Source of the DNA: a virus
IMG/VR virus record: IMGVR_UViG_3300014913_000011
Coordinates: 1-64,000 of that record
Direction: 5' to 3' (one strand)
Length of the DNA: 64,000 bases
In this document: one piece after another, positions 5,934 through 63,085 of the stretch
Numbering within the stretch: the stretch's first letter is position 1
How the letters are laid out: every line of letters begins with the position of its first letter
Made by a program: the position numbers and the translations under genes
The notes under the pieces: generated by a model
The model's database searches: none
What the model saw: the letters and a program-made list of their open reading frames with translations, nothing else
Told to the model about the DNA's origin: nothing

Positions 5934-8900
5934 TTAGGTATTACCTACTTGAGTTACTGCTCCTTGAAGTCCTTTAACCTCAGCTTCTAAAGTGTTTACT
6001 TGACTATACAAAGCTACTAAACCTTGAGCTAAAGATATAGTATTTGTATCTAATTGATTCAATTTGACTAGATCTTCATTTAGACTGTTCTTTTCTAATT
6101 CTCTATTAGTAACTTGTCTATCTATTTTTTCATCTGTCTTGACTAACTCATTCATGAATTCTGCTTTATTTAACCCGGCATCTTTATTTATCTTGTCCAA
6201 CTTTGCTGACATTTCTTCGTACCTGTTTTCTACATCTAAGTAAGCTGCCGTTATGTCTGCAGTATTAGCTCCCTTACCACCAACTCCATTTGTTCCATTG
6301 TTTCCTTGATTAGCTGACAACCCTTCTTTTATAGCAGCTACAAGCTGTTGTTGAAAACTAGCATCTAATTTTGCTACTAACTGTGATTTCTCTAAGGTTG
6401 TCTTTAAAGTCTCTCCACTGTCTGTGAAGGCTCCAGTAATAGCACTGCTAATGGCATCTGTATCAATCTCAAGTTTTTTATCAGTTCCCTGAGCTGCTCT
6501 TTCCTTTGCTGCCAAGTCTGCTACATTACTTGAGTTTTCAGTTGCCTTCTTAATTTCATTTAAAGTATTCTTATTCTCTTCCATAGGCTTTTTAACTACT
6601 TCCTTAGATTGTTCTAACTTTCTTGTAGAATTAGTAAAAGCTTTTAACTTATTTAATCTTTGCTCGTCATTATATTGTGGATCTTCGGTTGAATATAAGC
6701 TTTGAGGTCCTTTAGTTCTAAATTCAGGTGTTGCTAGTTTATTTCCATCTTTATCTGTATAGGTATATAGAGAATCATTTAAAGCTGACTTTTCAGAGCT
6801 GGCTCTATCTAATAAATTTGTTCTTTTCTTAGCTTCTACATTTGCTGGGAAGGTACCTGTTAAAGGAGTTTCTAATCCCCTAGGTTGTACTGTATTCTGA
6901 GATAAGGATTCATTAAGTTTATTTCCATCCATTATATAGGTAGGATTAACTGATGTGATTCCTCTACTTGAGTTCATTGCCTGCGCTTGTTGCTGTTTTA
7001 TTTGTGCTTCAGCTTGTGACTTTGCCTGTGCTTCAAGAAATTTTCTTCTAGCTTGAATAGAGCTTGACTGTGCTTGTTGCTTACTAGGTTCTGAGTTGGA
7101 GTATAAATCTTTTACCGCATTTACTACGTTACTTACTGGGTTGGATCCTTCTTTACCTATAATAGCTTTTAAAATTTGAGATAATAGAGTTGTTTGAGGT
7201 TTTAATGCCTCTACTACTGGTTTTGATTTAGCTTCGTTTCTTTTATCCTGTTCTGACTGTCCGGTTTCTTTATCTATTTGACCTGACTCTATCATGGATT
7301 CTAAATTTTTTGAAGATACTGTACTAGGATCTTGCTTAAATCTTTCACCTACTAACTTCGCTACTGCTTCCTTACCCATTAGTGAAGCTAGGGCACTTAG
7401 AGAGCTTGAGTCTAATTTTAAAGCCTGGATCTTACCTTTTGCGTCCCTGGAAGTTACTCCTATAATGCTTTGTAATTGCTTAGGTATATTGTCTAGTGCA
7501 GTAAAAGAGCCACCTTTAAACTGTCCTCTACGATTTATAAAAGATTCTTGTGGCTTATTTGCTAATGAATCTAAACTACTAATTAGTCCTTGTAAACTTG
7601 CATTAGTTTTTCCTGATAGTCCCGCAGTCTTTATTATGTTCTGTAAGCTTCCTCTGGTGCTTAATAGTTGCTGAAACTTAGAAGATAGCAATCCCCTAGA
7701 TTTTTCTATAGTTTGACTCTGCCCAGCCTTCCTAGCTTCTATATTTATGCCTTGAATTCTTTCATCTCTTTCTTTTGCACTTATAGCTTGTACTCTATTT
7801 CTATTCTTATCAAATATTTCAACTCTACCAGACTGTACTCCCTCAGAAGATAGCAGTCTAGCCATGCTCTTCTGAAATTCAAACTTGTCTTTACCTTCTC
7901 CAGATCTAATCTCTTGTAAGGGTCCACCTCTAGCTCCCTTCCTGAAGAAAGTCTCTGCATTAGGTCCTAAGTTAGAAAACGGAGACTTACCTAAAGCTTC
8001 TTCTATACCTTTAAATTGTGGTAAAGTGGACATATCCTCAAAAGCTCTTTGTGCTTTCTCTGCAGATACTATAACAGCTGACAGTGCTTGTGCAGTTGCT
8101 GTGGCTGGTTCGTTTATAGTTAGTATTTTAGTTAAGGCGTTTGCTGCTGAATCTACTGTGGTATCTAGTTCTGAGAATCTTGCAGTTAACTTTGTAAATA
8201 ACTCTGTTCTTAGTTTTTTCTCTTGCTCTGGTGTCTGTGGTCCTTTTTCTACTGAAGTTAAATCATTGAATATTTTTTTAAGATCCTCTGCTTGTTTAGA
8301 AGATTCTTTTCCAACTTCTCCACCAAATCCTTCCTTAGTTCCAGTCAAGATTTTATCTAAGGTATCAATATCAATTGATTTAATTGTATCTATACCTGCT
8401 CCAGAAACTATCTCACCTAAGTTTTGCATACCACCTAGTATATTCTTCTTAATTCCTTGAATTAATCCTTGAGCTTCTTGTGCATTTGCCTGTGCATTAA
8501 ACAAGTTCGGTGCAGCTATCTGTGCTCTCTCACCTGCTCCCAACTGTTCTAATGTTTTACCTATTTTCAACTGTCTTGCTTGAGAACCTTCTAAACCTGA
8601 AAATAGTTTTGCTTCTCTAGGACTAATAGGTGCTCTTTCTTTTGCCTGCCTATCAAATCTCCCTTTTAATAGTTTCTGAGATGCTGATTCAAAAGATTTA
8701 ACTGCTGAACCGAACATTTCAGCTGCCTTGGCAATTAAACCTACTGCCTCTATTTGTCTAGATGCTTCCTTTTTACCGACATCTCTACCTCTATCTACTA
8801 TCTCTACTGAATCTTTAGATGTATCAAGGATTTCTTTTCTAAGCCTTACTCTCTCTGATTCTGCTGTCGTTAAAAACTGCCTTAAACCTTTATTAAATTT

Positions 8901-20680: not shown

Positions 20681-21379
20681 TTATTTTGAGTTTTTAAATG
20701 AAACTCTTTCTAGAGCTGCATCACGAGCGGGTAGTTGAATCAAACTATAAATGTCATCAGGATTTATTACATTGTATATTTCGAACCAATCTTTCGGTGG
20801 TTTTCCTGACTGTGGATGAATAACTGCATCTCCATACTTAGATACTAGAGCCTTACCATACTTAGAATCTGTACGAATAAGGTATCCAGCTCCAAATCTA
20901 CCAAGATTGGAAATACTTTCATTTTTAGACTTTTTAGCTAACTCTTTATTATACCAAATTAAATTTTTAGTATAAATTAAACTAGACTCTGGAGAGCCTT
21001 GAATAAAGTATGCTGCCCATTTAATAGGTGAACTATCACCTGGTCCTACATTTTCTCCTATACCTAAAAATTCATTAGATAATACTGTTATTGTAACCTC
21101 TCCACTATCTGTAACACTGCTAGCTGATTTGGTTAATTGAGATTTAACTTCCTCTTGGATAATTTCTGAAAAGTTTAAAAACCTAGTAGGGTCGTCTTCT
21201 GCCTCTCCCCCCCAATATTCCTCCTGCATTCCTTGAAACATTTGCATGACTTTTACAGTAAAAAACTGATGAACTTGATCTGATTTTAACCTCCTTCTAA
21301 CCTCTTGATAATAGGCCCTACTCAGATCTCTCTTTAAATCTCTTATCCCTTTTTTAGCTTTCTCTAAGTCCTTTACCAT
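20681..21379 (-). CDS. Putative neck or tail-joining protein
   Basis: 232 residues, starting with a basic helical segment (LEKAKKGIRDLKRDLSRAYY), then a beta-rich region with a membrane-free hydrophobic core (IKWAAYFIQGSPESSLIYTK). It overlaps the intein-bearing gene at its start (ATG inside the previous stop region). Position in the neck cluster fits an HK97 gp10-type joining protein; the sequence is too diverged for a firm assignment. Confidence 0.45.
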   Translation of the reverse strand: MVKDLEKAKKGIRDLKRDLSRAYYQEVRRRLKSDQVHQFFTVKVMQMFQGMQEEYWGGEAEDDPTRFLNFSEIIQEEVKSQLTKSASSVTDSGEVTITVLSNEFLGIGENVGPGDSSPIKWAAYFIQGSPESSLIYTKNLIWYNKELAKKSKNESISNLGRFGAGYLIRTDSKYGKALVSKYGDAVIHPQSGKPPKDWFEIYNVINPDDIYSLIQLPARDAALERVSFKNSK

Positions 21380-23172
21380 GGCCCATCATCGCTAGGTATA
21401 GTGGGAGGATCATTTGGAGTTCCTGAATCTGCTTGATCCGAACTAGATCCATGTATATTCTTTATAATTCTCGGGTCTGTATCATAATGATCTGATACGC
21501 TCTTATCTGTTTTTACTGTAAGTGTATAAAATTCCACTATATGATCTGCTCCTAGTCCTTTAGTTCTTGGTGGAGATGTTAAAGCACATTCCACTCCATC
21601 TATTATAAACTTTTTTGCATCTCTACACAAGGCATAATTACATTTAAAAGTTTTTATTCTACAAACATTCTCACCATCCCAACCAGCGGATAAGTCTAAA
21701 AAGTCTCCTTTAGGGTTCCAAGTTACCAGACCTTTTATACATTCAAATCTTTTTTCAGTTAGTATACCCTGTCCTTTACATACTGGACATATTGAAGTTC
21801 TTAAGATTTTTGGATTATCTAATGAAGGGTCATACTGTATCCCTGCAGGTGCTGACTCAACATTGAAAGGCTGTGGGTAAACCTTCCGCTCGACTGAAGA
21901 TCCAACAAAGATATTAACAGGTCTGATAAATTCTGAATAATATATATTAGTTGATTTACCTCTAACAGTATCAAAGATGCAATTATTAACACTTATACCT
22001 TCAGCTATGTAGCTATGTTCATTAGTAACTTCAATATTATAAACAGTTGTTTCTTTTTTAAAGGAGTCTAAGGATTTTACCACCTGAAATAGTTTATTAC
22101 CATCCTGAAGAGATCCTCTCAAGTTATACTCCTTATCATTCCAGTATCTTATCTGGTAGCTATCTCTATGCTTTACTTTATTTTTATCAATAAATGCATT
22201 AGTTTTTCTTATACTAACTTTATATCCACAAGATAAAAGTAGATTATATACTTGATATGCTAATTTTTTAGAAATTGTAGTTAACACATTAGCATTAAGG
22301 TTCTTTTCAAAATGTCCATCTCCAGTATAAAGACCAGAAATTAAAGACATAGTTTGCTCCTCATTTAATGTGTAATATAGTTCTTCTGGGATCTTCTTAT
22401 TTCCTGCTAAGTGTCCGCACCACCTATCTAGTAAATCAGCTAGCTTAGAACTGTACATTTCAAAAACTAGATTCTTACTATTAGGTCTATCTTGTATTCC
22501 ATAGTTTAAATCGCAGACTTCTGACCATAAGTCACATACTTTAATACCTACATCTCTCTCTGAGTTATTTAAACAGTAAAGTATACTTCTACCTTTTGAC
22601 GTTACTCCTTCTGCTATGTATAATCCTATTGCAAATAGCAAATCATTAGATAATTGTAATTTTTCTGGTGAGGTTTTCTTTGGGCCTGTGAGATTCTCTT
22701 TCCACTTTATCTTCCTCTCAACTAATCTCTCCTTTGGTAACTCTCTTATACTTTTAAACACTAAGTCACCTTTTTGAATATCACTTATGGACTTTTCTAC
22801 CTGTTTTCCAATTATTGGTTTATAATTTGTACCTAAGTTAGAATATACCTTTAATTTATGATTGGAAGTAGCAGATATACCTACACTGTTTCCATACATA
22901 TGAATAGTATTAAAGTTAAACGTCCCTCCCTTGATAAAAGTTTTTGAAACCTGCTGAAGGTTACCTAACCCATCTATAACTTGATCACCTGGCACAAAAT
23001 CTTGAATTTCTTTCAATCCATTACCTGTCTCTATTAAAGTACCATATTCAAAACAATTGGGACAGTCTACTTCATATGGATCCATAATTACGGCTAAAGA
23101 TCTTCCCATCTCCTTAATGTAACTGTTCATACCTTTGTGAAACTGTTTCTTTAGATCTTTAGGTATTTTCAT
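21373..23172 (-). CDS. Intein-containing zinc-knuckle neck protein
   Basis: 599 codons; SD AAGGTT. Codons 40-397 are an intein, so the mature protein would be about 241 residues. The extein begins MKIPKDLKKQFHKGMNSYIK and has a zinc-knuckle region made of CPNC (37-40 after splicing) and a later CPVCKGQG, giving a CxxC...CxxC ribbon. The spliced Cys398 would become the fourth ligand in the first knuckle. The rest is beta-rich and ends in a Pro/Asp/Ser-rich tail. It lies among neck genes next to a head-completion type gene. The specific role in head-tail joining is inferred from position. Confidence 0.75.
   Translation of the reverse strand: MKIPKDLKKQFHKGMNSYIKEMGRSLAVIMDPYEVDCPNCFEYGTLIETGNGLKEIQDFVPGDQVIDGLGNLQQVSKTFIKGGTFNFNTIHMYGNSVGISATSNHKLKVYSNLGTNYKPIIGKQVEKSISDIQKGDLVFKSIRELPKERLVERKIKWKENLTGPKKTSPEKLQLSNDLLFAIGLYIAEGVTSKGRSILYCLNNSERDVGIKVCDLWSEVCDLNYGIQDRPNSKNLVFEMYSSKLADLLDRWCGHLAGNKKIPEELYYTLNEEQTMSLISGLYTGDGHFEKNLNANVLTTISKKLAYQVYNLLLSCGYKVSIRKTNAFIDKNKVKHRDSYQIRYWNDKEYNLRGSLQDGNKLFQVVKSLDSFKKETTVYNIEVTNEHSYIAEGISVNNCIFDTVRGKSTNIYYSEFIRPVNIFVGSSVERKVYPQPFNVESAPAGIQYDPSLDNPKILRTSICPVCKGQGILTEKRFECIKGLVTWNPKGDFLDLSAGWDGENVCRIKTFKCNYALCRDAKKFIIDGVECALTSPPRTKGLGADHIVEFYTLTVKTDKSVSDHYDTDPRIIKNIHGSSSDQADSGTPNDPPTIPSDDGPW
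21982..23055 (-). mobile_element. Intein with LAGLIDADG endonuclease in the neck protein gene
   Basis: Encodes residues 40-397 (358 residues). Block A starts CFEYGTLIETGNGLKEIQDF; block B is SATSNHKL; two endonuclease motifs are AIGLYIAEG (181-189) and ISGLYTGDG (278-286); block F/G is VYNIEVTNEHSYIAEG, then ISVNN before Cys398. Cys at position 1, Asn at the end and Cys at +1 form a standard class 1 splicing set. The penultimate residue is Asn instead of the usual His, which is seen in some active inteins. The DNA insertion lies within the codons for a zinc-knuckle, a conserved site. Confidence 0.93.
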
Positions 23173-32958: not shown

Positions 32959-35103
32959 TTATTTCTTGGATTTTAGTAATGTGATTAACCTCTTTTTCTC
33001 ACCTTCTGGTAACTCTCTAATATTACTAATTAAACCTTCTACTTCTACATCTATATTAGTATTGTCCGAAGCTTTGGTTCTGGTTTGTTTTTGTTGAGTA
33101 GGACTATCTACCTTAGTTTTTTTTGTAACTGTTTTAGTATTATCTACTGGTTTCTTGTTTCCAGTTGGTTGTCCTTTTGGTCTACCCTGGTCTCCAGATG
33201 TTTGTTGAAAAGGACTCCCAGGTATTCCTATACCCTCTGCTTCCAACTTTAACTCTTCTCGCATCTTCTCTACTTCTGCTTCTGGATCAAATCCCAAGAC
33301 TTGCATAGTGGTATGTCTGGAAACTAGTTTTCTATCAATCATTTGCATCATGGAAGCTCTAGTAACTGCATCACTGTCTGTTGTAATAACTGATTGTTGC
33401 CATCTCACTACCGGATAAGAATTAAAGCCATTTTGTTCTGCTATTAGCTTATATTGCTTATAAATCCAGGCAGTTATTGCTCTTCTAACGACATCTATCT
33501 GACTTTGAGTTGACTTAGAAGATAGTACTGCTGCTGCATTTTGTATAGAGCTGCCGTCAATTATGGCTCTAGATATACCTAAACCTGCTTGAATGTCCAT
33601 CTCTACTTGCTCATACTTGGCCTTTCCAAGGATGGCACCTATATCGGGGGTAGTTATTTTCTCAATATCCAAAGTATGATTCCATACTACAGAGAATGCC
33701 TTTTGAGGGGTGTTAAAGGCTTCTGCTAGATCTTCTAGAACCTTTAGATCAGTAACTGGGTGGTCCTTATCCCCTACAGTTACCTTTAGAATATAGTTAA
33801 AAATTCCATCTAAGGTAGCAAAATCGGCTGCTACTAGTTCGTCCTTATAATCGATGGCATCAAAAATCCTGGATCCTCTAGGTTTCGCATAAGCTTCATG
33901 GTCATCCTTACGAAAAAATATGACATCTAATTCATCACCCGTGAATAGGTAGTCATCTCCCCCTATAGCGGAAGCTTTCATTTTGGTGGGGACCATTCCT
34001 ATTAACTGTTTCTCCTCTGGACTCATTTCTCTCTTCTTTTGTCTCTCTACTGATTCCTTCAAACCAGATAAACCTTTAGAGGTGTAAGTGTAAGTAGCCC
34101 CACCAAAAAACCCTGAACTCTCTACATTCATATGTTTAGGATTTAATAGAGTATAAGCTATTGGCATCTTCCCGGATGCTTTTTTAGCTGCCACCTCTAT
34201 TTCCCTCGCAATCGCTGCATCATACCTTTTCTTATCCTGTTTGGTCCATTTTTTTCCAGTTACTTTTTCATAAACATCTCTAGATAGTCGAAGAAGGGTT
34301 GCCTTCTCTTTTTGTTTTTTCTTAGTATTAGTGGGTATTTTCCCAGGCAATGATGAGATTCCACCTGTATTTGGCTCATAACTACCTGTTCCTGGCATGA
34401 CATACGCTATACCATACTTGAATAGGTTATTAATTATCTTGTCTACTGTCTTCAAAAAGTTAGTATCTAAAATCCAAGAATCATAAAACTCCTTTATAGC
34501 CTCATCTGCTATTTCGTTTACGAACCCTGTTGATGTGAAGTCTGTGAGTGCGTCTATAGCTGATCCATATATTCCAGATCTGTAATATTCAACTTCAGAC
34601 CTTTCATATAGTTCAACTGCGTTCGCTTCGTCAGGTGTTTTCTCTCTGAGATCTAGTTCCTCATTGCTCAGAGGTGTACGGTATCTTTGATTCAGGGAGG
34701 CCATTTCTAGGGAAGCCATTTCTTTGTTGGTCTGTTTGACCTGCTTCACTACTTCTTCTATTCCTTTACCATTCTCTACTGCTTTAGCTATATCTCTTAA
34801 ACCTGCTATCTCTATCTGTCGAAGAAAGTTATCTCTTGTCTTGTTTAAATTTAATTTATGATATAGACTACCTCTATTAACCTGTCTCTCTGTAACTAGT
34901 TTATTTAATTGATCTTTATTTGCAAAAAAATTTCTATCAGCATCAAATTCTGAAATACTTAACTCTGCCGATAATTTTCCGTCCTTTATGTCACTAACCT
35001 TACTAATTTGGATACCTTTAGGTTTTAATGACTTATTAACTTTTGAAATTATGGCTGCTTTATCTATCTTTTTATTCTTATCGTCGTCTTTTTTTTCTAC
35101 CAC
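32959..35103 (-). CDS. Portal protein
   Basis: 714 residues, GTG start overlapping the terminase end by 26 nt; GGAGGAG lies about 15 nt upstream, slightly far. The N-terminus is Lys-rich. The core YERSEVEYYRSGIYGSAIDA ... LFKYGIAYVMPGTGSYEPN is a portal signature ('yyrsp.v.~Ai...~~~v...G.~y..~'), and later YEQVEMDIQAGLGISRAIID plus AVLSSKSTQSQIDVVRRAIT match the portal clip/crown region. The C-terminus is Lys/Gln/Thr-rich. It follows the terminase and precedes the protease. It would form the dodecameric DNA channel at one capsid vertex. Confidence 0.82.
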   Translation of the reverse strand: MVEKKDDDKNKKIDKAAIISKVNKSLKPKGIQISKVSDIKDGKLSAELSISEFDADRNFFANKDQLNKLVTERQVNRGSLYHKLNLNKTRDNFLRQIEIAGLRDIAKAVENGKGIEEVVKQVKQTNKEMASLEMASLNQRYRTPLSNEELDLREKTPDEANAVELYERSEVEYYRSGIYGSAIDALTDFTSTGFVNEIADEAIKEFYDSWILDTNFLKTVDKIINNLFKYGIAYVMPGTGSYEPNTGGISSLPGKIPTNTKKKQKEKATLLRLSRDVYEKVTGKKWTKQDKKRYDAAIAREIEVAAKKASGKMPIAYTLLNPKHMNVESSGFFGGATYTYTSKGLSGLKESVERQKKREMSPEEKQLIGMVPTKMKASAIGGDDYLFTGDELDVIFFRKDDHEAYAKPRGSRIFDAIDYKDELVAADFATLDGIFNYILKVTVGDKDHPVTDLKVLEDLAEAFNTPQKAFSVVWNHTLDIEKITTPDIGAILGKAKYEQVEMDIQAGLGISRAIIDGSSIQNAAAVLSSKSTQSQIDVVRRAITAWIYKQYKLIAEQNGFNSYPVVRWQQSVITTDSDAVTRASMMQMIDRKLVSRHTTMQVLGFDPEAEVEKMREELKLEAEGIGIPGSPFQQTSGDQGRPKGQPTGNKKPVDNTKTVTKKTKVDSPTQQKQTRTKASDNTNIDVEVEGLISNIRELPEGEKKRLITLLKSKK

Positions 35104-38035
35104 TTTTCTGTGTTATAACTCCTCCGTTCCTTATTCTACGAATCCCGCTTGATCTTTGCTCTTGCATGAACTCCTGAGGTGTACAAACTAGTCTACCTTG
35201 TTGTATCATACCAACATCTGGGCCAGATGTCAAACTTTGTTCGTTTATTTCCCTTATTATACCTGTTGTAGGTACACTTAAATCTTCTCCGGGCTTAAAC
35301 CCCCGATCATACGCACATTTACCTGCTAATATGAAGGCTGTATATAAATCCTTTGTGTTCTTGTCCAGATTTGATTTTCGCGCTGCATTACTGCTGTTTG
35401 CATTTTTAGGTAAATCATACCTTGGAAGTTCTTTAACACCTGAACTAGTTATGATGATTGAAGCTATTTGATCTATCATCTTCTGAACTAAATCTATTGT
35501 TTTTATCCTTCCTTTTGCGTCTGGTGAGCTTTGTACTTCTATTGGATTATTAGATTGAGGTAATTTTAATAAACCTTGCTCTAATAATGCCTTAGTATTA
35601 TTATTAGCATCACCTATAAATTCACTTACAAAATTACACATAGTAAGAATTCTCTTTCCTGTCATAAAAGGGCTTGACTCTTTCTCAATAATCTTTGTTT
35701 TTAGATGATCTCCCACGTCTAATTGACTTGGATCTGCTAGTAGATCCTGTAAAGTTCTACCTCCACCTCCAGAATCCATGTAAATTTCCTCAGGACTGAA
35801 TTTGAATATTAAATCAAGGATAGTTTTTGCCTGATCCTGGAAAGAGGCAGTGCCCCCTGGAATTTCTACTATATGAACTACCTTACATACGAACCCTAGC
35901 TCCATAATTACTATTGCTGTAGAATCTCTATCCCTAGCCACGTCAATTCCGAATACGTATTTGGTGTTTTTATGTTTATTTAAATCTCTCTCTGAATATG
36001 GAACTAGATCCACTTCCCTACATGCAGAAAGTAAAGCCATCGGAAATGCACCTGCTGAGTCTGCAATCCACTCAGCACACCACTCTGTAAGGAACATATG
36101 CGAAGGATCGTTATTCATTGCATTATCAATTAGGTCTTGCTCTAAAAAACCTTCAGGTATATCATTCCAAGGAACAAAATTTAAGGAGTGCTTATTACTT
36201 CCTGCTTTCATCTGTTGCCAAAATTTTTGAATAGTAGCCCACCAGTAATTAAATTGGTAATATCCAGAAGTAATCGCGATATATCCATTATCAGTGGAGA
36301 GTAAGTTTTCTATTAACTGTATATTATTTTTTCCTGACTCCTTATACTCGTTCTTAAGTTTTTCTAATTCTATTACCCTACCCATAGGATCAACTGATGT
36401 GGCAAGCATAGGTAGAATTACACTACTTAGAATTACCTCAGGGAGCTGAACACACTCATCAATTAATATCTCACTAAAACGTAGCCCTCTAATTTTTGCT
36501 CCATCTGTTCCTACTGGCAAAGCATTTAAGTAACTAGACTGATAACCCGTTGCAGGTGGTTTGAGTATACACTTACAAGCATCATTACCTTCAGTTGGCT
36601 CTTTAAGAATGCATTCTGCTAATAAAGGACTATCATCTACAAACTTTGTAAACTCTTTAAAAATAAGTTTTGACTGCCTGTAGGAAGGACCGAATACTCC
36701 CATTCTTGAGTTTGGATATAATAACATTTTAAGTGCTAAGTATACAGCACATAGGAACGTATTATGAGTAACGATATAATCATCGGTTACATATAGTTCT
36801 TCAGGATCATCTATCTTTATGCAGGTTGCATAATCTTTCTTTCCCGTAAACTCTATTGATTCTATCCTAAGACCAAAATTTTTTTCTGAATATTGATCTG
36901 TTTCTTTAAATCTCTCTAATTTTCTAGGTGATGAAACCAGTTCTCTTTTATCTTTATACCTAATACCTAATCTATAAGACTTTCTTCCTTTAACCTTGTC
37001 TCCATACTTATCCGTATACTTAGTTACTCTCGCCTGTATTGTACATATTCCACCCAATTTCCAAATTAAGGTTTGCACTTGTGTAGCCAACTCTTTACTT
37101 GTCGTTGTGTAGGTTATACTTCCACCTTTCACAGTTGTTCTATCTGTATCTATTAAACCCTGGATTAATTCGATGGTTTGTTTTCTTGATAGATTCATGT
37201 AGGCTTCAGGTATACTTTTGTCTTGGGACTTTTTACCAAAAATATTTAACCTTTTTAGTTCTTCTTTTAGAGTGTTTATATGAACTCTGCCTAAATTTCT
37301 TAGTTTTTTATGAACTATTACATAGTCATACTTACCTCTCTTGGAAAGTTCTAAATCTTCAGGTAGTGCCTTTGATACTTTCTCTAGTATAAAACCATCA
37401 GCTGAAGTAAATCCTACGTGATGTGTCATACATCCATCTCCAACTAAAGCCCCCAATAGGTACGGATGTATGTATAATTCTTTATCCACTTCTAATACTA
37501 CATTCTCTGCGACAGGTATTCTAGGATACCTATGATTTCTCTTAGCTTTACCACTACCAATATACTCTTTAATATCCTCTGTTTCTAATACTTCATACTG
37601 CCCAGATCCATTTACCCCTCGGACTGTCCATAAGTGTTCTTTAGTACACTCACAGGTTCTTCCATCATAGAAGTTTACTTTATAGATGTCTTGCTTACCC
37701 TGTGGAAATATACCTATGACATTACTTAAGCTGCCTTTAGGAGTAATAACTTGGTCACCGATTTTAATATCTTCAATTTTTACCCAACCATTAACTGTTA
37801 ATACTTTAGATCCATTAACAGTCGCTTTACCAAATCCTCTAGAAGCAGTAAGTTGGTTGAACTTGCTCTGCCACCAATCCATTAAAATCTTCCCCTGCAC
37901 TGGTAATAATGTCACAGGTCTACCATCTCTTACTAATAAATGATTAGCAGCTATTATAGGATTCTGCCTATAAAAATGAATTAATCTTGTTATATCGTCT
38001 GGTAAAGTATTACTTCTAGATTGAATTAAAACCAT
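35078..38035 (-). CDS. terL: Terminase large subunit containing an intein
   Basis: 985 codons; codons 71-425 are an intein. The mature protein (630 residues) packages DNA into the head. The ATPase Walker A is split: TASRGFGK (63-70) joins TFLC (426-429) after splicing. Walker B is LRFSEILIDEC. The C-terminal RuvC-type nuclease has GIDVARDRDSTAIVI (first Asp), IYMDSGGGGRTLQDLL (second) and further acidic residues downstream. It ends in a basic run (GRKKRRR). Upstream is a small-subunit candidate and downstream the portal, the canonical order. It starts by coupling (TTAATG) with no clear SD. Confidence 0.95.
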   Translation of the reverse strand: MVLIQSRSNTLPDDITRLIHFYRQNPIIAANHLLVRDGRPVTLLPVQGKILMDWWQSKFNQLTASRGFGKATVNGSKVLTVNGWVKIEDIKIGDQVITPKGSLSNVIGIFPQGKQDIYKVNFYDGRTCECTKEHLWTVRGVNGSGQYEVLETEDIKEYIGSGKAKRNHRYPRIPVAENVVLEVDKELYIHPYLLGALVGDGCMTHHVGFTSADGFILEKVSKALPEDLELSKRGKYDYVIVHKKLRNLGRVHINTLKEELKRLNIFGKKSQDKSIPEAYMNLSRKQTIELIQGLIDTDRTTVKGGSITYTTTSKELATQVQTLIWKLGGICTIQARVTKYTDKYGDKVKGRKSYRLGIRYKDKRELVSSPRKLERFKETDQYSEKNFGLRIESIEFTGKKDYATCIKIDDPEELYVTDDYIVTHNTFLCAVYLALKMLLYPNSRMGVFGPSYRQSKLIFKEFTKFVDDSPLLAECILKEPTEGNDACKCILKPPATGYQSSYLNALPVGTDGAKIRGLRFSEILIDECVQLPEVILSSVILPMLATSVDPMGRVIELEKLKNEYKESGKNNIQLIENLLSTDNGYIAITSGYYQFNYWWATIQKFWQQMKAGSNKHSLNFVPWNDIPEGFLEQDLIDNAMNNDPSHMFLTEWCAEWIADSAGAFPMALLSACREVDLVPYSERDLNKHKNTKYVFGIDVARDRDSTAIVIMELGFVCKVVHIVEIPGGTASFQDQAKTILDLIFKFSPEEIYMDSGGGGRTLQDLLADPSQLDVGDHLKTKIIEKESSPFMTGKRILTMCNFVSEFIGDANNNTKALLEQGLLKLPQSNNPIEVQSSPDAKGRIKTIDLVQKMIDQIASIIITSSGVKELPRYDLPKNANSSNAARKSNLDKNTKDLYTAFILAGKCAYDRGFKPGEDLSVPTTGIIREINEQSLTSGPDVGMIQQGRLVCTPQEFMQEQRSSGIRRIRNGGVITQKSGRKKRRR
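36761..37825 (-). mobile_element. Putative class 3 intein with LAGLIDADG endonuclease in terL
   Basis: Encodes residues 71-425 (355 residues), inserted inside the Walker A P-loop. It starts with Ala (ATVNGSKVLTVNGWVKIEDI) instead of Cys/Ser. Block B is TKEHLW with Trp136; block F is ATCIKIDD with Cys405; it ends VTHN before Thr426. Trp at block B, Cys at block F and Thr at +1 are the W-C-T set that defines class 3 inteins, in which the internal Cys replaces Cys1 as the first nucleophile. Two endonuclease motifs are visible: LLGALVGDG (193-201) and IQGLIDTDR (291-299). Splicing is required to make a working packaging ATPase. Confidence 0.9.
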
Positions 38036-51794: not shown

Positions 51795-52616
51795 TTAGTC
51801 AACATGTAAAATTTTATGAACCTTTTTACAAGACCTATACATTTGATTTTTAATAGAATATTGAGTTAAACTGGGTAGTTCCAGACACGTAATAGAGCCT
51901 TTAGGCCGAAAACTTTTAGTATCAATGCCAATTCGATCATACTTAGGAGTACCTGTCCTCGACTTTATAAAACGAGGTTTGTTGTAAGAGGTATGTCCAT
52001 GAATCACCGTTTTTCCAAAATCTAAATCAGATATTAAAAAACTATTCCTTATCCATAATAAATCCTCAGAAGCTTGATCTTCAACTTTTACACCTGGCAT
52101 AAGACCAGCATGTACAAAAATATAATCATCAGTCTCTAACATTAGATTTAGACTATTTAAAAATTTTAAATGATCTATAGGAAATTTCTTACGCATAGTT
52201 TTTGGTGAATCTAGATGCATAATACTCTCACCAGTGTGGTAACACATTCCAACTTTGCCTTGAAGTCCATAACTCTTATAGAACATGTCTCCACCATTTA
52301 CCATATGCCATTGACCGAAAGTTTCTCCAGGGTATCCTAAAAACCCAAGTGCCATTGACTCATGATTACCTTTTAAAAAATAAGCAGAACTACCTAATTC
52401 TTTCTTTACCTTTAATAATATATCTATTACATTAGAAGAACTAGGACCTCTATCAATATAATCACCCAGAAAAACCAGTAAATCTTCACCTACTTTAAAC
52501 TTTTCTGTATTAACTACATGATCTAATAAAATACTTAACTCTATAAATTGGCCATGAATATCTCCAATAGCAAATATTCTACCTTTAGGGTTTGGTAGTC
52601 TGATACGACTGTTCAT
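51795..52616 (-). CDS. PPP-family (lambda-type) protein phosphatase
   Basis: 273 residues. The metallophosphoesterase motifs are in order: GDIHG (18-22), GDYIDRG (51-57), GNHE (83-86), FVHAG and VIHGHTSY. They match the two-metal PPP phosphatases similar to phage lambda NinI. It would remove phosphate from Ser/Thr/Tyr or nucleotide substrates. It overlaps the zinc-ribbon paralogue by 4 nt. SD is weak; likely coupled translation. The substrate in the host is unknown. Confidence 0.9.
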   Translation of the reverse strand: MNSRIRLPNPKGRIFAIGDIHGQFIELSILLDHVVNTEKFKVGEDLLVFLGDYIDRGPSSSNVIDILLKVKKELGSSAYFLKGNHESMALGFLGYPGETFGQWHMVNGGDMFYKSYGLQGKVGMCYHTGESIMHLDSPKTMRKKFPIDHLKFLNSLNLMLETDDYIFVHAGLMPGVKVEDQASEDLLWIRNSFLISDLDFGKTVIHGHTSYNKPRFIKSRTGTPKYDRIGIDTKSFRPKGSITCLELPSLTQYSIKNQMYRSCKKVHKILHVD

Positions 52617-54307: not shown

Positions 54308-55015
54308 ATGGTTAAGAAAAGAAAACTAAGAACAAATTTCACGCATCCAATAGTGGTATTCGATACTGAAACGGGGGGGTTAAATTCAGATGTAGAAGTT
54401 AATTGGAACCTGAATCTAGCATCAAAAATAGAAAAAGGGACAAAGATTGAAGGTACGGTTGCTAACCCTGCAGCCCCCGTTTTAGAAATAGCAGCTGTCG
54501 TTCTAAGTCCAATAACCTTAAAAGAGATTGATTATTTTCACACCTATGTCGGACCAGACAACGGTCAGACTTTAGAAGAGTATTTAAATTTATGCCATCC
54601 AAAGGCTTTAAGTGTTAATGGATTCAATAAAGGCGAGAGACGAGAAGCCCTAAAGAACGCTCCCACAGCAAAGGAGGCTTTAAAGGACTGGGTTAATTGG
54701 CTACAATTTGGTCATAGCTCACCACAAAAATTTCTACCTTGTGGACAGAACGTTCGTTTTGATATTGACATGATTAACTCTCTCGCTATGCGAAGTGGTG
54801 TGGATTTTCAATTTAGAACTAATCACATACTCGAATTAATTGCCTACTCATTAATTTATTTTTCACTTCCTAATACAGGTACTGTGGCTAATTATAAGTT
54901 AACTACAATAGCAGAATGTTTGGGAATCCCCACAGATCAAGCACACACTGCATTAGCAGATGTACGTATGACTGCGGATTGTTTACGCATTTTCCTAAAG
55001 GAGTTCACTGGATAA
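54308..55015 (+). CDS. DnaQ-type (DEDDh) 3'-5' exonuclease
   Basis: 235 residues, ATG with GGAG 7 nt upstream. ExoI is FDTETGG (Asp19, Glu21); ExoII region GQNVRFDIDM; ExoIII is HTALADVRMT (His213, Asp218), all in the right order for the proofreading DEDDh family. It would remove 3' nucleotides from DNA, as a free proofreading unit or a nuclease acting on host DNA. It starts the rightward operon, TAATG-coupled with the next gene. Confidence 0.88.
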   Translation: MVKKRKLRTNFTHPIVVFDTETGGLNSDVEVNWNLNLASKIEKGTKIEGTVANPAAPVLEIAAVVLSPITLKEIDYFHTYVGPDNGQTLEEYLNLCHPKALSVNGFNKGERREALKNAPTAKEALKDWVNWLQFGHSSPQKFLPCGQNVRFDIDMINSLAMRSGVDFQFRTNHILELIAYSLIYFSLPNTGTVANYKLTTIAECLGIPTDQAHTALADVRMTADCLRIFLKEFTG

Positions 55016-55287: not shown

Positions 55288-56853
55288 ATGAGTTTAGATT
55301 TAACGAAATATAGAGCATCTACAATTGGACTTCATGGATTAGAAGACGAGTTTAAGCTTTGTCATATCCCATTCCTAGTAGTTAATGATGTCTATGGAGC
55401 CATTGCTCTTGAGGGTTCTTCAGGATCAGGTAAGACAACTCTTATTGATCGCCTAGGCAAACTAAATGCTCTGACTGAAGGGGGAGGCCCAGTTGGTATC
55501 TTCTCAGCAGATAAGGCTAGGTATGAAGATTTCATAGGATGTCCTATTCCCAACTTAGAAACTGGTCAGATGAAGATTTATCCGATGCCTAAATCTGTAA
55601 CTACAATGCAAACTCTACTAATTGATGAAATCAACAGAGCTTCCTATGAGAATCAAGAAAAATGGCTCTCCCTTCTCGCTAGTAGAAGAGTAGATGGACA
55701 TGATACTCAGTGTAAGTATCTATTTGCAGCGATGAATCCAGTAGCTGGTGAGGGTGGAGATCAGTATGAAGGTACACAACCACTAGACAAGGCACTAGGT
55801 GAGAGAATTATGCTGTTAATTCAAATGCCTAAATTTAGTGACCTTCCGGCAAAAGACAAGATCAATATTATGACCGCATGTAAAAATCAAGTTCACTGGT
55901 CACCAACACCTGAACTAGTAAGCTTACATACAGAGTTTCTAAAAAGAGCCAGGGATTTTTATGAAGAATACAAGGCAACTATTACTGATAAAGTAGCTAA
56001 CTATATTTGTATGGTAGACAGTAAGATTGCAGCAGAATCTAGGGGAGAAGGAGGTCTAAAATTAGAAGGAAGAAGGGCACAGTTCATCTTAACAAATATT
56101 ATTGCTAACCATGCTTTAAATAAAGTATACTATGATACAGCTAGCTTGGAAAATTCTGCTCTAGAAGCACTTATCAAGAGTTTTCCAAATGTACTTTGGC
56201 AGGCTTCTGTAAATACAGTAGCTTTAAAGCAAGCCCATGATCTCTCTAGGGATATCCTCAACATGGATTCTGAAGAGCGGATTAAAGCACCTAATAACTA
56301 CGATGGTTTAGAAGGCCCTCTAAAGGTAATTAAGAAAGCAGCTGAGGATGGAGAAAGTACCGAGCAACTATCAAAAATTATTAACCAAGAATGGCCTAGT
56401 AAAAAACTTGATCCAATTAACTACTATCTGTTTGCCATTGCTGCATCTATAGGCTTGGCGAAAAGTGAGGATTCTGATACCTCAAAGCCTGTGATAAAGA
56501 AAAACGAGTATGCCAGACTTGAAAAAATATATAAAAGCCTACTTACTACTGAAGCATATCTTGAGATGGATAAAGTTGTAGAGTATGCTAATAAAAATTC
56601 AGGAAGTTTTCCTACGGATTACACTAGACCCGACTTCATAGAAAGAGACATTGATCCTGAAGCAATGGGCCTATTTGACCAGACCCTTGGAAACCTAGGA
56701 GTTGGGGGATATGCTTGCCTGGCAGTTTCGATAAGTGCTGAAGAATTAGTACATATTAAAGGTCTTCAAGATTATTTTCACATACTAAAAAAGATGTCTA
56801 CATCAATTCGGGCATTTCAAAAGATTAAAATAACTGTAAATAGTAGAGGTTAG
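55288..56853 (+). CDS. MoxR-type AAA+ ATPase (CobS-like)
   Basis: 521 residues. The AAA+ core is at residues 15-190: Walker A LEGSSGSGKTT (41-51), Walker B TLLIDEINRAS, sensor FAAMNP, and a later ALGERIMLLIQMP typical of MoxR proteins. The rest is helical (about 200-520). It is followed within one base by the VWA/metallopeptidase gene, so the two proteins probably form a MoxR-VWA pair: an AAA+ ring that remodels or activates a metal-site partner. Phage copies are often called CobS, which I consider a naming carry-over. Confidence 0.9.
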   Translation: MSLDLTKYRASTIGLHGLEDEFKLCHIPFLVVNDVYGAIALEGSSGSGKTTLIDRLGKLNALTEGGGPVGIFSADKARYEDFIGCPIPNLETGQMKIYPMPKSVTTMQTLLIDEINRASYENQEKWLSLLASRRVDGHDTQCKYLFAAMNPVAGEGGDQYEGTQPLDKALGERIMLLIQMPKFSDLPAKDKINIMTACKNQVHWSPTPELVSLHTEFLKRARDFYEEYKATITDKVANYICMVDSKIAAESRGEGGLKLEGRRAQFILTNIIANHALNKVYYDTASLENSALEALIKSFPNVLWQASVNTVALKQAHDLSRDILNMDSEERIKAPNNYDGLEGPLKVIKKAAEDGESTEQLSKIINQEWPSKKLDPINYYLFAIAASIGLAKSEDSDTSKPVIKKNEYARLEKIYKSLLTTEAYLEMDKVVEYANKNSGSFPTDYTRPDFIERDIDPEAMGLFDQTLGNLGVGGYACLAVSISAEELVHIKGLQDYFHILKKMSTSIRAFQKIKITVNSRG

Positions 56854-56854
56854 A

Positions 56855-58351
56855 ATGTCTGCAGACAAGGTTGGTAAAGAAACTAAGAAGAAAAAGGATG
56901 AAGTGGTAACTTACAAACTTCCGAGGGAAGCGGAAGACTTTCTAGAAACTATAATTAACAATTATCCGGTACATCATGATAAGAATACTCTTCGTAAAGT
57001 GATGAGTCTTGGTAAGGTTGTTTACTCTGACAGTAAAGGGATGACTGCTGCTGTTATGAATACTAAACCCTATACCTTAATTTTTGGTAAGCAGTTTATG
57101 TCTACTAAAATGGATAGGATAGAGGATTGTGTCTGGGTTTTATCTCACGAACTTACACACCTTGTATTAGATCATTTTGCCTGTGATATTCTTGAACTCT
57201 TTAAGGATAAAAAATTAGGACAGAGGGCAGGACACATTGTAGTTGATGCACAAGTAAATGCTACGGTTTATCACTCCTTAAAAGATGAAAAGTATTTGGA
57301 TATTCCAAAAAAGCTATACTCCCAAACTGAAATGCCTGACTGTATGCTTCGTCCAGACGGTGAGCCAGAGGAAGAAGTCTATAAAGAACTTCATAGGGAG
57401 CTATATTCAGTAGAGGGAATAACTAATGAGGATCTAATTGATGGTTTAATGCCCTGGTTTAAAAAGAATCAAGATAAAATCGACGAGATGAAAGAAAGGT
57501 TAGTTGGTAATCATGAAGATCTGTTCGAGGACAGTAGTAGGATGGATGATCCAAGTGATGACCTGTCAGATCTCACTGAACATATGGCCAACCAAATGTC
57601 TGACTGGTTAGATGACGATGAAGAAAAGGGAAAAAGTTCCGGTGAAGAAGAGGACGCTGATAGTAATGAGGAAAAGCATAATGGGAAAAAACCAGGAAAG
57701 GGAACTAATGTAAGGAAAAAACAAGTAAGAACTTGCTTAGATAAAATAGCCTACGCAAAACGACTCAAGAAACAGTTAAATAGATTCTATGAAAAAAGTC
57801 CCAGTGCTAGAATTCATGAAGCTATAGAAGATCTAAATCCTAAATACCCCACTAGAAGTCCAGTCCCTAATTTCCAGGATAGGAGGGCTGCAGCTATGTT
57901 TGCGGTAGGTAAACTACCTATATTTTATCAACGAATACAAACAGGTTCCAAAGTAAGGGTACCTTGCTATGTAGATGTTAGTGGTTCTCAGAGTATGGTT
58001 ATACCTTATGTACAGCCAGTAGTATCCAGGCTCAAAAACATCATAGGTGAGTATGTAAACTGTTTCTCTAACTACGTAAATCCTTGTAGAGTTGCAGATT
58101 TTGCAAAGGGGATTTACGAATCAAGTGGTGGGACTGACTTTGACCCAGTAATGGAGGACATCCTTAAGAATAATTATACTTCAGCTGTTATTCTTACTGA
58201 CGGTCAAGCCTATATAAGAGATGATTTAATTCATAGAATTAAGTCCAGAAATATAAAGATTACAGTGGGTTGGACTATTGATGCACCAGACGTGGAGCCT
58301 TTAAATCAAGTGGCAACTAAGACCTTTTACTTGTTTAAGGGAAGAGCTTAG
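56855..58351 (+). CDS. Metallopeptidase-like plus VWA protein (DUF2201-like)
   Basis: 498 residues, start 1 nt after the AAA+ stop. N-terminal zinc-peptidase domain with HELTH (98-102) in SHELTHLVLDHF; Ser/Glu/Asp/Lys-rich linker (225-280); C-terminal VWA-like domain with the MIDAS motifs DVSGS (374-378), Thr427 in SGGTDFD and Asp449 in LTDG, so metal binding looks intact. The order matches DUF2201 proteins that partner MoxR ATPases. It may cleave or act on an assembled or membrane complex. The peptidase activity and target are unknown. Confidence 0.85.
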   Translation: MSADKVGKETKKKKDEVVTYKLPREAEDFLETIINNYPVHHDKNTLRKVMSLGKVVYSDSKGMTAAVMNTKPYTLIFGKQFMSTKMDRIEDCVWVLSHELTHLVLDHFACDILELFKDKKLGQRAGHIVVDAQVNATVYHSLKDEKYLDIPKKLYSQTEMPDCMLRPDGEPEEEVYKELHRELYSVEGITNEDLIDGLMPWFKKNQDKIDEMKERLVGNHEDLFEDSSRMDDPSDDLSDLTEHMANQMSDWLDDDEEKGKSSGEEEDADSNEEKHNGKKPGKGTNVRKKQVRTCLDKIAYAKRLKKQLNRFYEKSPSARIHEAIEDLNPKYPTRSPVPNFQDRRAAAMFAVGKLPIFYQRIQTGSKVRVPCYVDVSGSQSMVIPYVQPVVSRLKNIIGEYVNCFSNYVNPCRVADFAKGIYESSGGTDFDPVMEDILKNNYTSAVILTDGQAYIRDDLIHRIKSRNIKITVGWTIDAPDVEPLNQVATKTFYLFKGRA

Positions 58352-61283: not shown

Positions 61284-62039
61284 ATGTCAAGCAATATACA
61301 AGAATTACTAAATACGTATAAAGATAGATGCAAAACCAACTGTAGACCATACTTAATACTAGGAAGCAATGGACATGCTAGAGAAATGCTACAAACCTCC
61401 AGAAATAGTTTAGGAAATATACAAAACTCAACCTTATATGAGTATTTTGGATTCATATTAGAAAATGAATTAGCAACATTTAATAAAGGATTTCAAGATA
61501 AAAAATACATACTTGAAGAGGAGTTAATAGAAGAATTAATTGAAAAATTTCCACTAAACGCTTCACAAAATAGGAAAGTATACTTAGGCATAGGTATAGG
61601 TAGTCCCAAAATTAAAGAAAAAATTTATAAAAAATATAAAAAAGAACATAGAGTTAACTTTGTAAACATTGTAAGTAATTTAGCTCAAGCAGAAGAATCT
61701 ATAAATGGCTGGGTATTTAAACCAGAGCAGGGTTTGTATATTGCAAATAATGTTAACTTAACTACAAACGTATCCTTAGGAAAGCATGTACATTTAAATA
61801 CAGCTTGCACTGTTTGTCATGATGCTAAGATAGATGACTTTTCAATTGTGTCGCCTGGAGCGATAGTTTGTGGAAACGTGTCTATAGGTAAGAGGTGTTA
61901 CATAGGTGCAGGTGCAGTTATAAGAGATGGGGTGTCTATAGCAGATGACACTACTATAGGTGCGGGTACAGTAGTAGTTAAGGATATAGAGGAAACTGGA
62001 AGAACTTTTATTGGAGTACCTGCAAAAGAATTAAAATGA
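61284..62039 (+). CDS. NeuD/PglD-like sugar O-acyltransferase
   Basis: 251 residues, ATG with TAGGAG. N-terminal Rossmann-like part (PYLILGSNGHAREMLQTSRN) is followed by hexapeptide repeats ([IV]G..V.I...) such as VSLGKHVHLNTACTVCHDAK and ending FIGVPAKELK, which give a left-handed beta-helix. This is the NeuD/PglD family that acetylates sugars on nucleotide or polymer. The gene is transcribed with two glycosyltransferases and overlaps the first by 4 nt, so it likely makes a modified sugar for a cell-surface or phage glycan. Confidence 0.85.
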   Translation: MSSNIQELLNTYKDRCKTNCRPYLILGSNGHAREMLQTSRNSLGNIQNSTLYEYFGFILENELATFNKGFQDKKYILEEELIEELIEKFPLNASQNRKVYLGIGIGSPKIKEKIYKKYKKEHRVNFVNIVSNLAQAEESINGWVFKPEQGLYIANNVNLTTNVSLGKHVHLNTACTVCHDAKIDDFSIVSPGAIVCGNVSIGKRCYIGAGAVIRDGVSIADDTTIGAGTVVVKDIEETGRTFIGVPAKELK

Positions 62040-63085
62040 AATTACTATACATATCAGGATATCATGAGACTTTAGAATATAATGATCTAAGTCTCTTCAC
62101 AGAGATGGGTATAGATTGGTTCTCTACTGGAAAATATAAGGATACTAGTGAACAACTCACTAGCAAGTCCTGGAGACCTAGTATTACTAAGGAGACAGAT
62201 CAGGAACTATTACAAGAATTTAACAGGTTAAACCCTAACCAACAACAGTATGGGAGAGTACAACTAAGTAAGGAATTCGTGGATAAATTTGACATGATAC
62301 TGTGTAGTTTTTGTTTCTTAAGACAAGATATGTTAGACTTAATATGGCCACACTGTAAACACAAACCCTTAGCGTTCTTAACATACTCACAGCAGTTCTC
62401 GAATTTTGAGGTAAGACTTCAAGAATATAGATCTAAAGGTGTGAAGCTAGTAAGGGGGTCTCCCAGAGAGTCTACAATAGATAATTATGCAGGAGAGGAT
62501 GCTATTATTAGATGTTATGTAGATGAAAATGTATTCTCTAAATGGACAGGGGGGAATAGTAAGGTACTTAGTTTTTCAAATGACTTTCCAGCGAGAATTA
62601 ATCATCCAAATTTTAATTGTTATAGAGCATATAATAGGGTCATACAGCAAAAACTTCCATGCTCACTTTTTGGTAACCAGACAGAACCTGCAGGAGGAGG
62701 AGGCTTCATACCCTTTGAAAAACATCTTGAAGAGTATAAGAATTGTAGTTGTTACTTTTCTATAGGATCTCCCCCAGCAACAGTAACCTATAATTTTTTA
62801 GAGGCTTGGATGACTGGGGCACCAGTATTAACTTTTGGAAGTAAAATAGGTAATGGAGTAGATTATAATACCCATGAGCCTCCCTTCCTAATCGAAAATG
62901 ATGTAGATGGTTTCTATTCAGACGATCTCGCAGAACTAATATTAACAGCTAATACATTACTTCTAGACCAAAACTTAGCAAAGAAAGTTGGAGATGCTGG
63001 AAGAAAGAAATGTCTGTCCATCTTTGGGAAAGAAGTAGTTAAAACTAGTTGGGAAGTTTTTTTCAAATCACTAGGGGTTTATTAG
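62036..63085 (+). CDS. Glycosyltransferase (GT-B type) A
   Basis: 349 residues. N-terminal Rossmann half (LLYISGYHETLEYNDLSLFT), linker, and a C-terminal half with ATVTYNFLEAWMTGAPVLTF and VDGFYSDDLAELI, the donor-binding pattern of GT4-like transferases (E..A.G.PV). It is the paralogue of the next gene. It would move a sugar from a nucleotide donor to an acceptor. Overlaps the NeuD-like gene by 4 nt. The acceptor is unknown. Confidence 0.75.
   Translation: MKLLYISGYHETLEYNDLSLFTEMGIDWFSTGKYKDTSEQLTSKSWRPSITKETDQELLQEFNRLNPNQQQYGRVQLSKEFVDKFDMILCSFCFLRQDMLDLIWPHCKHKPLAFLTYSQQFSNFEVRLQEYRSKGVKLVRGSPRESTIDNYAGEDAIIRCYVDENVFSKWTGGNSKVLSFSNDFPARINHPNFNCYRAYNRVIQQKLPCSLFGNQTEPAGGGGFIPFEKHLEEYKNCSCYFSIGSPPATVTYNFLEAWMTGAPVLTFGSKIGNGVDYNTHEPPFLIENDVDGFYSDDLAELILTANTLLLDQNLAKKVGDAGRKKCLSIFGKEVVKTSWEVFFKSLGVY

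Follow-up and report, generated by a model that had tools for sequence, protein, structure and literature searches.

The window, a stretch of 64,000 nucleotides taken from a 72,413-base IMG/VR virus record that also has terminase-like, minor-tail-protein and clamp-loader-type genes, contains two adjacent genes that, judged by their sequences, are a very divergent branch of a gene pair known from phage N4 and its relatives (gp24 and gp25; Schitoviridae). The branch is a clade of its own in which a conserved motif of the second protein reads AxHxxxD instead of AxDxxxN. We consider it somewhat probable that the products of the two genes make up an ATP-driven remodelling machine of the N4 gp24/gp25 type, with a built-in protease, that works at the replication stage of infection. 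The domain make-up of the two proteins, their conserved residues, the conserved pairing of their genes and the replication-gene neighbourhood of N4-type pairs are observations, and are described below.

The gene block and its AAA+ ATPase

The pair lies in a block of three genes on the + strand. The first of these (54308..55015) encodes a DnaQ-type 3'-5' exonuclease of 235 aa (Pfam RNase_T, E 2.3e-12; PHROG 192, E 2.2e-29), and is followed by genes for a MoxR-type (AAA_5) AAA+ ATPase of 521 aa (55288..56853) and a DUF2201-type metallopeptidase-VWA protein of the N4 gp25 family (498 aa; 56855..58351). The initial annotation had placed the latter two genes one base apart, and these coordinates are exact, with ATG starts at both genes. 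Its description of the block as an early-type operon fared less well: a sigma-70-type promoter was not confirmed, as the 25 promoter-like sites found between 53200 and 60700 compare with 25.5 +/- 4.2 in shuffled sequences, so that gene order remains the basis for the label.

The ATPase contains complete Walker A (G43-SSGSGK-T50) and Walker B (LLIDE at 110-114, with D113 and E114) motifs, as initially annotated, together with further conserved AAA+ positions at D81/G84 (DxxG), N150-P151 (the sensor-1 Asn region) and R173, and thus presents the motifs of the MoxR / AAA_5 group. Its AAA module spans residues ~37-180, while the C-terminal half is divergent. Consistent with this, Pfam AAA_5 scores just above its cut-off (22.7 bits against 22) and AAA_3 below (21.3 bits against 27), and PDB chain 2r44 is matched with E 7e-4. 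Of the 203 window frames with at least 60 codons, a profile built from phage ATPases (17 rows, window excluded) matches this protein alone, with E 1.9e-7; the clamp loader that the window also encodes, likewise AAA+, is unmatched in this search. Profile-profile comparison of the first protein with the phage ATPases by hhalign gives a probability of 96.3%. PHROG 1297 matches the AAA module only, with E 0.0021 for the window protein and 1.6e-6 for its counterpart in a close relative, L024. In the reverse direction, a three-row ATPase profile of the window clade matches 0/17 of the known phage ATPases, nor that of phage DC4, and the homology of the first gene is therefore argued from the AAA module and the partner gene. 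Taken together, the first gene appears to encode a MoxR-type ATPase resembling N4 gp24, a very divergent relative with putative homology over the AAA module. Among solved structures, the nearest entries to the phage ATPase profile are Midasin AAA modules (E 2.9e-41).

Several other genes of the window were noted as well. On the - strand, a terminase-like gene (985 aa; 35078-38035) and a gene for a protein of 599 aa (21373-23172) match LAGLIDADG and Hint/intein families, which suggests two inteins, and a NinI-like serine/threonine phosphatase is encoded at 51795-52616 (PHROG 246, E 1.1e-41). On the + strand, possible glycan-modifying genes occupy 61284-63085, where a match to a NeuD-like sugar acetyltransferase (E 5e-41, under the model's cut-off) is followed by a weak glycogen-synthase match (E 9.4e-4).

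The metallopeptidase-VWA protein and its clade

The 498-aa protein consists of a zincin-like region (~60-150), an acidic linker predicted with low confidence (~216-295) and a VWA domain (~358-498), such that both the MoxR-VWA layout and the metallopeptidase-VWA fusion proposed initially hold. The annotated residues are likewise all present: the putative zinc/catalytic motif HELTH at residues 98-102 (57146..57160, + strand), and the MIDAS formed by DVSGS at residues 374-378 (D374-V-S376-G-S378; 57974..57988, + strand), Thr427 (within GGT; 58133..58135, + strand) and Asp449 (within TDG; 58199..58201, + strand). H98, E99, H102, H107, D374, S376, S378, T427 and D449 are identical in 44/44 aligned sequences, the window protein included.

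Membership of the family is indicated by several comparisons. PHROG 1314 matches residues 66-454 with E 2.4e-11, and a profile of phage gp25-type homologues (17 rows, window excluded, the phiKT1024 row left out as non-homologous) finds the second protein, and it alone among the 203 window frames, with E 1.8e-11. Since the profiles made from known pairs match only these two of the 203 frames, a chance match is excluded. The hhalign probability against the gp25-type profile is 97.6%, and in the reverse test a three-row second-gene profile of the window clade recovers six gp25-type proteins. The Pfam signal of the window protein taken singly is lower (DUF2201, 20.4 bits, under the cut-off of 26.4; DUF2201_N, E 0.065, not significant), and the second-protein profile has weak PDB matches to integrin I domains and to small proteins resembling zinc peptidases. 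These sequence comparisons identify the second gene as a homologue of N4 gp25, PHROG 1314 and DUF2201, with HExxH and a full MIDAS present.

PHROG 1314 and many RefSeq records of gp25-type proteins bear the name 'HNH endonuclease', and these names are what would favour such an identity for the second protein. At E 0.01, HNH Pfam families match 0/44 family members, versus 44/44 for DUF2201 and 41/44 for DUF2201_N ('putative metallopeptidase'). An HNH endonuclease is thus a most improbable identity for this protein, and the label looks like an annotation error that has been passed on within a metallopeptidase-VWA family.

Structure prediction for the second protein gave a mean pLDDT of 65.9 with the 44-sequence alignment and 35.6 from the single sequence. 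Confidence varies along the chain, with values of ~78-95 at residues 371-490, mostly 53-81 at 60-210 and <50 at 216-295. In the VWA half, where the clustering of the MIDAS residues is at issue, the domain folds confidently: the C-terminal part of the predicted model has a VWA fold, with Z up to 11.7 over 134 residues. Foldseek matches the model to VWA domains (prob 1.00) and to a chain of the NorQD MoxR-VWA complex (prob 0.98, E 4.7e-2), and a viral structure library returns phage VWA proteins including one from the N4-like phage FBKp27. The peptidase part is unmatched in two PDB comparisons, the lists of which are filled by the VWA domain.

Two close relatives, L023 and L024, came out of a search with the ATPase segment, and alignment-based scans with either gene gave only these again. 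Identity to the window is 43% and 41%, respectively, for the ATPase, and 46% and 50% for the second protein. Both relatives (2/2) show the gene order DnaQ-type (RNase_T-family) exonuclease, ATPase, metallopeptidase/VWA, uracil-DNA glycosylase; no counterpart of this glycosylase was detectable in the window record, in a search run without a positive control. The initial annotation had held that homologues occurring only as unrelated separate genes would speak against a joint system, and in both close relatives the pair is kept together. With the ATG at 7340 taken as the start, the two genes of L024 overlap, while in L023 a 181-aa ORF between them (L023:7286-7831) repeats part of the C-terminal half of the ATPase (44% over 138 columns, E 5.7e-37) and is apparently a partial tandem duplication. 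Related-locus searches with the whole window proteins, the VWA segment or a jumbo-phage homologue found nothing, as did a search of a bacterial genome collection for relatives of the pair. Likewise, tblastn of the window proteins against 50,697 phage records gave no match at 1e-5; the weak partial matches seen at E 10 pointed to N4-like and jumbo phages, and thence to N4 gp24/gp25. The branch is thus known from three records in the collections searched.

A long branch (3.95 changes per column, 100/100) separates the window, L023 and L024 from the other sequences in a tree of 62 second-gene proteins; as the tool warns, long branches meet at this point. The same division is visible in the motif following HExxH, which among the 62 rows reads AxDxxxN in 58, AxHxxxD in three (the window, L023 and L024) and neither in one (DC4). 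In the window protein this motif is A125-G-H127-I-V-V-D131 (57227..57247, + strand), and the protein is accordingly filed as a variant and not as a strict member of the N4 gp25 group. By analogy with gluzincins, the first variable position of the motif (H127) may be the third zinc ligand, with a possible alternative alignment placing D131 there. As the third-ligand motif is changed in the window clade, peptidase activity cannot be assumed.

Pairing and genomic neighbourhood in other phages

Genes of both kinds are widespread: tblastn finds matches to N4 gp25 in 642 of 50,697 phage records and to the phiKT1024 ATPase in 571, many of them near-duplicates. Both genes lie inside the fetched stretch in 16/18 annotated records compared (L009 left out). 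The exceptions are phiKT1024, in which ~45 kb separate the gp25-like gene from that of the ATPase, and Vibrio phage 1.026.O, in which the annotation has no ATPase closer than 4 kb. Arrangement of the pair varies in some phages. The two genes of Escherichia phage AlexBoehm lie on opposite strands with 3.6 kb between them, and Alteromonas phage AD45-P2 (L020:2682-7346) has them in reversed order, followed by a 2-kb gene labelled COG4676, a possible third component; DC4 also carries the pair. Five N4-type proteins used as queries against IMG/VR returned at least 561 relatives, of which the best 80, mostly N4-like through the choice of query, were used for counts of pairing. Of these 80, 67 have an ATPase gene upstream in the same orientation, as do 64 of the 65 with at least 1.5 kb of upstream sequence, the sole miss (L043) having its ATPase at the other end of the record. 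The same closeness, strand and order hold for the window (one-base gap), L024 (overlap) and L023 (one ORF between).

The surroundings of the pair point to replication. Among the 53 loci of at least 8 kb drawn from the best 80 of the at least 561 relatives, the flank includes a gene for a helicase, a DNA polymerase or nucleotide metabolism in 48, and in none (0/53) a detectable counterpart of any of the seven N4 virion genes sought there; as a positive control, the virion queries were run on two divergent N4-like phages and find 7/7 counterparts in each. N4, XC38 and Vibrio phage 1.026.O all carry the gp25-type gene on the strand of the replication genes, opposite to that of the virion genes. 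Similarly, the available part of a roseophage paper lists gp24 and gp25 homologues, with no assigned function, between RNA-polymerase and DNA-metabolism genes (PMC2784036).

Like N4 gp24/gp25, the window pair has a MoxR-type ATPase gene followed by that of an HExxH-MIDAS protein, the same invariant catalytic and MIDAS residues and a location in a non-virion block. It differs in that the window's second protein is at most 25% and its first at most 20% identical to the N4-type reference set; in that N4-type ATPases are mostly 340-450 aa, as opposed to 521 aa with a poorly aligning C-terminal half; and in having AxHxxxD where N4 gp25 has AxDxxxN, an exonuclease as neighbour and, in the relatives, a glycosylase also.

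Possible functions of the pair

A MoxR ATPase working with a MIDAS-bearing VWA cofactor is the logic of RavA-ViaA, NorQ-NorD and CobS-CobT, and the predicted one of the window pair; the RavA ATPase has a LARA domain, and none of the three systems is known to have an HExxH domain fused to VWA. Midasin / Rea1, whose AAA modules are the nearest of those solved to the phage ATPase profile, pulls on substrates that are held by its MIDAS, which follows a D/E-rich linker, and is one eukaryotic polypeptide with no known peptidase, whereas the window system is encoded by two genes. MoxR-vWA systems have been reviewed, as the available part of that source indicates (PMC7159879), and, according to the part available of a 2021 study, group 2.2 jumbo phages have pairs of a MoxR ATPase and a vWA protein with an N-terminal metallopeptidase, for which virion assembly was proposed (PMC7824862). 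The kind of system is thus already known. The window pair differs from those of the jumbo phages in its setting, beside an exonuclease in a 72-kb record, and in the role favoured, at the replication stage here and in the virion there. The archaeal virus ATV likewise combines a MoxR ATPase, p618, with a VWA partner, p892, with which it interacts, as stated in the accessible portion of PMC4124505; ATV differs in its extracellular tail growth and, by the available text of PMC7824862, in lacking the peptidase domain. Given the homology of the second gene to N4 gp25, the resemblance of the first to gp24, the breadth of the family and the jumbo-phage pair, the initial description of an unassigned system and not a known one does not stand. 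Its accompanying statement that the phage role is not established does hold: in the open-licence literature, no paper testing the function of the phage pair was found beyond genome descriptions and PMC7824862.

Help in maturing head or tail proteins, as a chaperone-protease of virion assembly, is an unlikely function, with these points in its favour: the jumbo-phage proposal, the p618-p892 interaction together with the presence of p618 in the ATV virion (as reported in the available part of PMC4124505), which would bear on the window pair by analogy, the placement of the pair after the virion genes in jumbo phage GAP32, and mass spectrometry notes for the ATPase in PA5oct (gp149, annotated ESI-MS/MS) and DC4 (gp11). 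The DC4 support is a single peptide with one PSM, for which the authors, in the portion of their report available, ask for confirmation (PMC10638138), and both the virion-free flanks of N4-type pairs, found with a working control, and the strand of the gp25-type genes argue against assembly. A pair that dismantles a host machine, as an inactivator of a host complex or a counter-defence factor, would be compatible with a gene block of takeover genes and with the presence of the pair in unrelated phage groups. We nonetheless regard this role, suggested in part by the initial annotation, as doubtful: evidence for counter-defence was not found, there being 0 matches to PADLOC families (which comprise defence, not counter-defence, proteins) for either protein at E 1, and the near-constancy of the pair in the N4-like set would be unusual for counter-defence genes, which are often variable.

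Insertion of a metal or cofactor, in the manner of CobS/CobT, CoxD/CoxE or NorQ/NorD, would have the pair activate a phage metalloenzyme, for example ribonucleotide reductase. Distant similarity to PHROG 249 'porphyrin biosynthesis' (N4 gp24, E 6.8e-7; window ATPase, E 0.047), the NorQD chain among the fold matches and the thymidylate synthase or deaminase genes beside some pairs are in line with this idea, but the fused HExxH domain, kept in 44/44, would have no obvious part in metal insertion and the window's own block has no recognisable metalloenzyme partner gene, leaving such a role quite improbable. A proposal framed around the block itself, in which the pair, encoded with a proofreading-type exonuclease and, in relatives, a uracil-DNA glycosylase, would serve as a dedicated protease of the replication stage and process or dismantle a phage or host replication or repair complex by MIDAS-directed proteolysis driven by ATP, with the zinc site of the clade rebuilt from Asp to His, is tentative and, in that specific form, also doubtful.

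In the broader reading that we favour, in which remodelling is powered by ATP and coupled to a protease domain of the same machine, the first protein would form an ATP-hydrolysing AAA+ ring on which the second docks, and the MIDAS metal of the second may grip an acidic residue of the target, the zinc-peptidase domain being carried on the flexible acidic linker. ATP-driven pulling would then loosen or dismantle the target complex, and the peptidase could cut the parts so exposed. As the pair is encoded with replication genes, such action would most likely fall during takeover or DNA replication and not as part of the virion.

Genes like gp25 occur in hundreds of phage records, and a function test for them was not found in the open-licence literature, which makes the finding useful. 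The retention of the pair, and of its catalytic and MIDAS residues, in another branch that has diverged very far speaks for a genuine biochemical task shared by the two proteins, and the location in a replication module speaks against the published idea of virion assembly for N4-type phages. Dropping the name 'HNH endonuclease' would remove a misleading label, and experiments can now be focused on this gene pair and a small number of residues.
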